Positions 39,643-42,030 of a stretch of 64,000 nucleotides of DNA are shown here, piece by piece (the first letter of the stretch is position 1; every line of letters starts with the position of its first letter). Under the pieces are notes generated by a model. The model was not told where the DNA came from, ran no database searches, and was given only the letters and a program-made list of their open reading frames with translations. The translations under genes and the position numbers were made by a program. The DNA is from Paenibacillus yonginensis (lineage in GTDB: Bacteria; Bacillota; Bacilli; Paenibacillales; Paenibacillaceae), in assembly GCF_001685395.1 (NCBI RefSeq), contig NZ_CP014167.1, positions 1,431,501-1,495,500 of the forward strand. Direction: 5' to 3'.

Positions 39643-40145
39643 ATGGAGATTCGCGTGTTAACTGCGGAGGATGCCGAGATTTACCGGGAGATCCGATTGA
39701 GGTCTCTGAAGGAAAATCCGGAGGCTTTCTTAACTACCTATGAAAGGGAACAAAACCTGCCTATTGAAGAGCTGCGGCAAAAAATCAAGGCCACGGAGCA
39801 TCAGTTTACTTTGGGGGCTTTTATGGACGGCGAGCTTGCTGGGATCGTCACTTTTGTAAGGGAGAGCAGAGCTAAAATTACCCATAAAGGCAATGTTTTC
39901 GCTATGTATGTATCCCCTGAATTTAGGAAACAGGCATCGCCAAAGCCCTGGTTCGGCGGTTGATTGAAAAGGCAAAACAGCTTGAGGGACTCGAACAGAT
40001 TAATCTTGCTGTTATCACAGCTAACAAAGGGGCCAAGCGGTTATATGAAGCAGCAGGTTTTATAACTTATGGAACGGAGCAAAATGCCTTAAAGGCTGGT
40101 GGCCGATATTGGGACGAAGACTACATGGTCTTGCGCTTAAACTGA
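39643..40145 (+). pseudogene. GNAT acetyltransferase, frameshifted
   Basis: The first 97 codons encode the start of a GNAT enzyme (YREIRLRSLKENPEAFLTTYE; VFAMYVSPEFRK). At 39933-39934 a G seems to be missing: one more G would restore RKQGIAKALVRRLIEKAKQLEGL (core QGIAKALVRRLIE), the acetyl-CoA binding loop, and continue to AAGFITYGTEQNALKAGGRYWDEDYMVLRLN (core YGTEQNALKAGGRYWDE) at 40145. The repaired protein would have about 167 residues, normal for the family. As written, the first ORF ends at 39963 without the CoA-binding half. Confidence 0.82.
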
Positions 40146-40649: not shown

Positions 40650-40725
40650 CACCTGACAAGGAATGAAGTTTAGGCCGCCAAAATAAACAAAATCGGCACT
40701 TTTAATGAAAGAACCTTCTGCGTTT

Positions 40726-41982
40726 TGAAGTGCACCCCTTAGAATAGACATTGGAAAAACCCCATGGTTATTCCGATGAATTCTAGGGGGTGTATTTTTG
40801 TGGCTATAAAAGGACAAAAGTTTAAGCGTTATCTAGAAGAACTCAAGCTTAAAGCGATTCGACTTCATATTGAAGAGAAGTGGACCTATCGGCAAATCAA
40901 TGAACACTTAGGTATTCAGGATAAAGACCGAATGAAGCGATGGATGCGAAAGTATCGGGAGCAAGGTGAGTTTGGATTATTGGATCAGCGAGGTCGACGT
41001 AAAGCCTATATCGATCAGGATCGGTATGTTCAGAAGCTTGAGCGGGAGAATGAACGGTTAAAAAAGTGCTTGGAAATCTGGATGCGGGAAAAGGAACGCT
41101 TTACCCTTATCGAGCAAGCGGCAAACCGGGGGGAAGTAGCTGAACTCTGCAGCCTCATTGGCGTCTCAAGAAGTGGTTACTACGCTTATTTAAAGCGGAA
41201 AGGCAACGATCGGGATGCGGAAGCGAAACAGCTCATCTCTACGGTTTACAAACGCTACGAAGGAAAATACGGTTACCGGCAACTTCAGTTATTCTTGTGG
41301 CAAGATGAGGGCGTATGGATGAATCACAAGAAGATTCTACGACTCATGCAAGAGCTTGGCATTCAAGCTCAGATTCGCCGGAAACAACGCACAAACGCTG
41401 TTTACCGAGCGGCAGAGCGTGTAGCGGAGAATCTGCTTCAACGAAATTTCACGGCCGAAAGACCCAACCAGAAATGGGTCACGGATATTACCCAATATCG
41501 GGTTGGTGAGCGATGGCTCTACCTTTCGGCCATCAAAGACTTATTCAATAATGAAATAATCGCCTACCAACTTAGCGAACGGAATGACAACGAGTTGGTT
41601 CTCCGAACCTTCGCCAAAGCGTTTGCTAAGCAAAAAGACGTGACCGGGTTGGTCGTTCACAGCGACCAAGGTTTCCAGTACACGTCTCATGCTTACCACA
41701 ACATGCTGCCAAAGGTTGGCGCCCGAATCAGCATGTCTCGCCGAGGCAATTGTCTAGACAACGCCTCCATGGAGAGCTTCTTCTCGCATCTCAAAACGGA
41801 AGGGCTCTATCCCTATGATATCCGAAATCTGACAGAGGCACAAAGACGAATTGAAAAATATATACGGTTTTATAACCAAAGTCGACCACAACGGAAGCTA
41901 AAAAAACTGACGCCGATCGAGTATCGACGTCAGTTCGCTGCCTAGGTGTTTTTTTGATGTCCACTAAATAGGGGCTTGACCA
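40726..41982 (+). mobile_element. IS3-family insertion sequence, IS150-like group
   Basis: A 1257-base element. Ends begin TG and finish CA, and the terminal regions are imperfect inverted repeats with shared CCCCT, GACAT and A-rich blocks (left 40726-40760, right 41946-41982). A 3-base direct repeat TTT (40723-40725 and 41983-41985) is the likely target duplication. It carries one transposase gene and seems intact and recent. Confidence 0.85.
40800..41945 (+). CDS. IS3-family transposase in a single reading frame
   Basis: A 381-residue protein joining what are usually OrfA and OrfB. Residues 1-60 hold helix-turn-helix units (WTYRQINEHLGIQDKDRMKRWMRKY, core YRQINEHLGIQDKDRMKRW), followed by a leucine-rich coil (VQKLERENERLKKCLEIW), an HTH_21 segment and the integrase core with the DDE triad: Asp in WVTDITQY, Asp in VVHSDQGFQYTS and Glu in NASMESFFSHLKTE. 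At 41060-41066 lies A6G, aligned in frame as A-AAA-AAG at the place where IS3 elements normally shift frame; here the zero frame already gives the full transposase. GTG start behind AGGGGG. Confidence 0.9.
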   Translation: MAIKGQKFKRYLEELKLKAIRLHIEEKWTYRQINEHLGIQDKDRMKRWMRKYREQGEFGLLDQRGRRKAYIDQDRYVQKLERENERLKKCLEIWMREKERFTLIEQAANRGEVAELCSLIGVSRSGYYAYLKRKGNDRDAEAKQLISTVYKRYEGKYGYRQLQLFLWQDEGVWMNHKKILRLMQELGIQAQIRRKQRTNAVYRAAERVAENLLQRNFTAERPNQKWVTDITQYRVGERWLYLSAIKDLFNNEIIAYQLSERNDNELVLRTFAKAFAKQKDVTGLVVHSDQGFQYTSHAYHNMLPKVGARISMSRRGNCLDNASMESFFSHLKTEGLYPYDIRNLTEAQRRIEKYIRFYNQSRPQRKLKKLTPIEYRRQFAA

Positions 41983-42030
41983 TTTCGCGGAAGGTTCTTT
42001 TATTTTTTTTCCAATTTAAAAATGTTTCAA

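Follow-up and report, generated by a model that had tools for sequence, protein, structure and literature searches.

A clade of IS150-type insertion sequences prefers intrinsic terminators as targets

Why does an insertion sequence lie exactly in the loop of a transcription terminator? The question is raised by a window of 64,000 nucleotides of the Paenibacillus yonginensis genome (NZ_CP014167.1, positions 1,431,501 to 1,495,500; all positions below are those of the window, meaning this whole stretch), in which a preliminary description made from the sequence alone had reported an IS3 element in the loop of a terminator at 40708-42010. These coordinates hold for the terminator together with the element, but not for the IS alone, which occupies 40726-41982 on the + strand (1257 bp), starting with TGAAGTGCACCCC (40726) and ending with GGGGCTTGACCA (41982). 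It displays the hallmark of the IS3 family, imperfect inverted repeats of the form 5'-TG...CA-3' and a short target site duplication (TSD), here the 3-bp TTT at 40723-40725 and 41983-41985 (3-5 bp are expected). The transposase gene (40800-41945, + strand) encodes 381 aa from a GTG start, or 393 aa if begun at an upstream ATG, with HTH_28, HTH_21 and rve domains. The protein matches the IS3 model NF033516 (E = 1.7e-104, 350 bits against a cut-off of 160), and its matches to PF00665, PF13333 and PF13276 identify the DDE (rve) transposase of the IS3 family.

IS3-family elements usually have two overlapping ORFs joined by frameshifting, an arrangement that does not strictly define the family. The window IS lacks this layout, since its transposase is a single uninterrupted ORF. 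For many relatives at 61-83% identity to this transposase, the alignment begins only at about residue 97, suggesting a separate first ORF in those relatives. Comparison with IS150 of E. coli (IS3 family), the one reference used, places the window IS in the IS150-type subgroup: IS150 InsK is 45% identical to the window transposase over 266 residues, and IS150 shares with the window clade the TG...CA ends, the TGCACCC motif in the left repeat and a TSD of 3-4 bp. Unlike the window IS, IS150 carries two ORFs with a programmed frameshift. The host genome (one contig, 5.0 Mb) contains one full copy of the IS.

The arms of the split terminator lie directly outside the TTT copies. The left arm (AAAGAACCTTCTGCG, 40708-40722, + strand) includes the left target half-site, an A-tract with a C-run, and the right arm (CGCGGAAGGTTCTTT, 41986-42000) leads into a T-tract, so that the right part of the terminator spans 41986-42010 on the + strand with a T8 run at 42003-42010. 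Together the arms form 15 paired positions, one of which is G-U. When the site is rejoined with a single TTT, which becomes the loop, it folds at -26.4 kcal/mol (z = -6.7, equalled by 0 of 200 shuffles), and its hairpin score is 42.1, compared with a 99th percentile of 21.0 among 5363 control positions. The sequence and this fold confirm that 15-bp stem arms flank the element with TTT as the loop, and that removing the element and one TTT rebuilds a terminator with its T-tract, both as first described. With a stable stem followed by a T-tract, the host site has the structure of an intrinsic terminator and is predicted to act as one. When 40 genus genomes were searched for an unoccupied orthologue of the window site, matches were confined to the neighbouring coding regions, and none covered the intergenic site. 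For two copies in a related genome (G031), the unoccupied orthologous sites in G011 and G032 are both contiguous hairpins, so insertion flanks do join to the predicted hairpin in related genomes, as the preliminary description required; ACAAAAATCCCGTTCTCTCTA-AGAGAGAACGGGATTTCTTT is an example of such a contiguous unoccupied terminator. The insertion flanks of two genus relatives are common to loci of Paenibacillus rubinfantis and P. timonensis. Separately, a short dispersed palindromic repeat (TAACGAAACTACAGATCGTTA; L371-L373) occurs at many places in G031, G011 and G032, and at 39643-40145 of the window a GNAT-type acetyltransferase seems to be broken into two ORFs that lie in different frames (39643-39963 and 39960-40145) and may be a frameshifted pseudogene.

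To place this insertion among those of its relatives, we gathered elements from the genus, from named genomes and from the class (399 genomes), and examined a clade of IS3-family, IS150-type elements with 38-100% transposase identity. Loci with unclear automatic ends (for example L212, L215, L218-L223, L226 and L229) were excluded unless both the ends and the TSD were clear. By eye, almost all copies sit in terminators. A first control, in which 70 nt were folded and any pairing across the site was counted, discriminated poorly (0.79 vs 0.57), and a local hairpin score was used instead. At 45 non-redundant sites with an exact TSD, the best hairpin score near the insertion averages 25.2. The mean for the 5363 control positions, taken from the same flanks, is 9.7 (p = 6e-20), and 30 of the 45 sites exceed the control 99th percentile. 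Sites were scored as passing by a threshold on either the hairpin or the half-site score. By this measure, terminator-like target features are present at 91 of 100 resolved clade sites and missing at nine, compared with 9.3% of random positions (12.9% of AT-rich ones). Other IS3 groups in the same genome, which served as controls, pass at 1 of 12 sites (Fisher p = 3.5e-9 vs the clade). The training sites of the half-site matrix came from the clade itself; of the sites outside that set, 47 of 55 pass. All nine scored copies in Anoxybacillus sediminis pass, as do all nine in the Paenibacillus dokdonensis cluster.

In the transposase tree, 50 of 52 tips within one branch (support 96/94) have at least one passing site, and the control groups fall outside it. 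This terminator-targeting branch includes Longilinea (Chloroflexota); a Bacteroidota site (L153) and sites in Clostridia metagenome bins (L148, L151 and L154) look alike by eye only. A preference of the clade for terminators as targets is thus well supported. The location of the window IS follows from this preference, which it has in common with a large group of relatives in many bacteria, whose insertions are almost always in terminators. As a separate observation, a second, distant IS3-family element in the P. yonginensis genome (L244, G000:C1:942272-943126, 39% identity) likewise seems to interrupt a long palindrome resembling a terminator (AAAAGAGCTGTTTCC...GGGAAACAGCTCTTT).

The insertion sites share a half-site, AAAAAAnCCCC, which is inverted on the other side and stands at a fixed distance from the TSD. 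To the left of the TSD in the 45 sites, A occurs at -14 in 39 and at the remaining positions from -13 to -17 in 31-34, with C at -7 to -10; to the right, G occupies +7 to +10 and T occupies +12 to +18 (35 of 45 at +14). At least one half-site scores over the background 99th percentile in 42 of the 45. Since terminators are palindromic and bounded by A and T tracts, they follow this rule, and its spacing usually lands in the loop. The preliminary description had suggested, as one of two possibilities, that the transposase may prefer extruded or bent hairpin DNA. The preference for terminators is upheld by the clade, but the hairpin loop or extruded DNA as its cue is not supported in that form, since insertions also fall in stem arms or at the hairpin foot. 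That the transposase reads a cruciform or single-stranded loop instead of A/T and C/G half-sites seems to us unlikely, even though a strong hairpin is centred on the TSD at most sites (within 1.5 bp at 25 of 45) and another IS3-family element, IS1397, goes into palindromic units (PMC1525189). A distant subgroup (L198-L202) also combines perfect TSD-centred hairpins with weak half-site scores, which suggests that the exact cue differs between subgroups. Against this reading, insertions within stem arms (L033, L038 and L040) or at the foot of the hairpin (L095, L135, L109 and L115) keep the distance to one half-site: the left one is exactly placed in L033 and L040, and the right one is within 0-2 bp in L135 and L095. 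Moreover, the L213 copy has gone into another copy, at an A5C4 run of that copy's left-end hairpin and with the usual spacing, where the half-sites score 9.7 and 8.6 but the centred hairpin is weak (12.2). Because the half-site spacing stays constant even in stem or foot insertions, the loop would not be the determinant, and recognition of duplex sequence is the simplest reading. We infer that the transposase recognizes the target directly.

Targeting could also be coupled to transcription, through paused or terminating RNA polymerase, terminator RNA or an R-loop, the half-site spacing then reflecting the pause position. The targets are indeed places where transcription ends, and most lie just past a gene. 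We nevertheless regard this as improbable, since the half-sites are symmetric, some sites have the left or the right one alone, and intact copies are not strictly oriented to their neighbour genes; an expected strict orientation to the upstream gene was not found among them (L+R+ 14, L-R- 11). We give still less credence to near-random insertion followed by survival in terminators alone. Terminators are extragenic and their disruption is probably mild, so the earlier suggestion that they are safe harbours retains its value as a plausible evolutionary reason. Selection by itself, however, does not explain spacing that is constant to the base, and other IS3 groups with equal TSD length in the same genome are in terminators at only 1 of 12 sites. 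Finally, a coincidence of one insertion, conceivable for a host genome with a single full copy, was rejected as having a negligible chance of being true, given the hairpin scores at 45 sites and a context common to 91 of 100 related insertions.

An insertion into a terminator splits it, and the IS carries two hairpins of its own. The left-end hairpin (40727-40798, + strand), a putative inward-facing terminator and read-through shield, forms about 33 pairs within the first 75 nt of the IS (-41.6 kcal/mol, z -8.05). The ribosome-binding site of the transposase, AGGGGG (40785-40790), lies within this hairpin, which runs into TATTTTT just before the GTG start. A simple terminator scan, which needs an uninterrupted stem and a loop of 3-8, does not list it, yet it has a stable stem and T5. 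Of 30 non-redundant relatives, 29 have this hairpin, three of its pairs showing double changes, and its conservation could be due in part to transposase binding at the inverted repeat. The right-end hairpin (41904-41936, - strand), followed by a T-run and located in the 3' end of the transposase gene, is the sole terminator-like site that the scan returned for the region. Among 29 relatives it covaries, with 27 cells changed on both sides compared with 8.7 in shuffles, and 96.8% of cells are paired compared with 27-49% when slid. Since both hairpins face inward, each is a putative terminator that could halt transcription arriving from its own side.

The ends also contain a candidate promoter that would be assembled in the circular intermediate of the copy-out/paste-in pathway of the IS3 family. 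A promoter formed at the circle junction is established for other IS3 members. In the window IS, TTGACC in the right end (41976-41981, + strand) would be the -35 element and TAGAAT in the left end (40740-40745, + strand) the -10 element; with a junction of 3 bp, the circle would place 18 bp between them.

In the genus, fragments of the IS come mainly from its first 75 nt, where mean coverage is 34, compared with 0-3 at most interior positions. Of 68 fragments, 35 are contained entirely in nt 1-125, and 14 belong to the last 125 nt. Matches to a covariance model of the left end occur in 34 of 40 genus genomes. Solo left ends (L003, L020, L022, L023, L025-L030, L330-L349 and others) are hairpins of about 75 nt without a transposase, scattered in most genus genomes. 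Most keep the stable hairpin and the T-run, with double changes in 8 of 17 pairs, a count to be read with the fact that the ends behind it were partly picked by a structure-aware model that favours intact hairpins. The upstream gene is co-directional for 34 of 37 solo left ends compared with 38 of 53 intact elements, a weak difference (p = 0.03) based on crude ORF calls. Orthologous solo left ends in close species are too highly conserved all round to discriminate. The orientation and the kept hairpins suggest that solo left ends are reused as terminators of upstream genes. The collection also contains a 244-bp MITE-like derivative (L044, G038:C1:1896719-1896962), which lies in a terminator with the TSD CGA and has both IS ends but no transposase gene.

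IS150 itself may show the same tendency towards terminators. In a rank-spread sample of its insertions (L350-L361; matches at 401-1843, from E. coli genomes and plasmids), 7 of 9 distinct sites are at hok/sok loci, mostly between a AAAGCCCC run and GAGGC, which resembles an arm of the antisense RNA terminator hairpin. IS150 differs from the clade in a longer spacing from the C-run (16-19 nt) and in having at least one site within a gene (rbsR). Group IIC introns also insert at intrinsic terminators, but they are retroelements that reverse splice downstream of the hairpin, with machinery unrelated to that of the window IS. Two other IS3-family elements, IS1397 and ISKpn1, insert specifically into extragenic palindromes (REP/PU), a specificity that experiments cited in PMC1525189 assign to the transposase. 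By this description their targets are repeated REP sequences and not terminators generally, which sets them apart; the window clade does not use REP or palindromic units, its targets being differing terminators that share the A-tract/C-run spacing alone.

ISs with terminators upstream of the transposase, and the exaptation of IS terminators after decay, have been described (Naville and Gautheret 2010, PMC2965389). The likeness of these "mobile attenuators", and of IS10-type protection against read-through, lies in IS-borne 5' terminators (PMC2965389). That study takes insertion as nearly random, whereas in the window clade the target itself is a terminator, and it stresses 3' terminators left upstream of genes, whereas the window clade leaves its left-end hairpin downstream of genes. 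IS1447, a Firmicutes-rich IS3 group once filed under IS150, requires transcriptional slippage between two ORFs, unlike the single ORF of the window IS, and the available text of PMC6211511, the source for this group, reports no terminator targeting. Among open-licence papers we found no IS that targets intrinsic terminators, although an earlier description may exist.

We consider it probable, taken as a whole, that the clade prefers intrinsic terminators through the A-tract and C-run, that its end hairpins terminate transcription inward, and that the left hairpin is reused after decay. The cue would lie in the sequence of the terminator DNA: an A-tract and then a C-run (AAAAAAnCCCC), usually present in inverted form on both sides of the insertion point. 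A staggered cut of 3-4 bp would fall some 12 bp inward from the A/T tracts, a point that in an ordinary terminator lies in or beside the hairpin loop. Insertion would break the host terminator while supplying a terminator-like, inward-facing hairpin near each end. The left hairpin would stop transcription from the left neighbour and hide the ribosome-binding site of the transposase, and the right hairpin would face transcription from the right neighbour. The junction promoter would be active only when the ends meet; as its transcript would start past the left arm of the hairpin, the transposase would be made during transposition and not by read-through. In a decaying IS, the left hairpin would often remain and may terminate the upstream gene. 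More tentatively, and with slightly less than even confidence, we propose that a widespread IS3 branch has adapted to life in intrinsic terminators: it would recognize their sequence signature as its place to insert, replace the broken one with two inward-facing terminators of its own, and leave left-end hairpins that bacteria retain as gene terminators, so that new terminators would have arisen from these elements repeatedly.

Targeting of terminators would let an IS spread with little harm, and terminators of its own would limit the damage further, minimizing the cost of the transposon. For a large IS family, the half-sites amount to a sequence-based rule of target choice that can be tested, and they perhaps explain the repeated presence of IS150 at hok/sok loci. 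A transposase that prefers terminators is a possible tool for placing DNA between genes, and for Paenibacillus genomes the clade may be the origin of many terminators.
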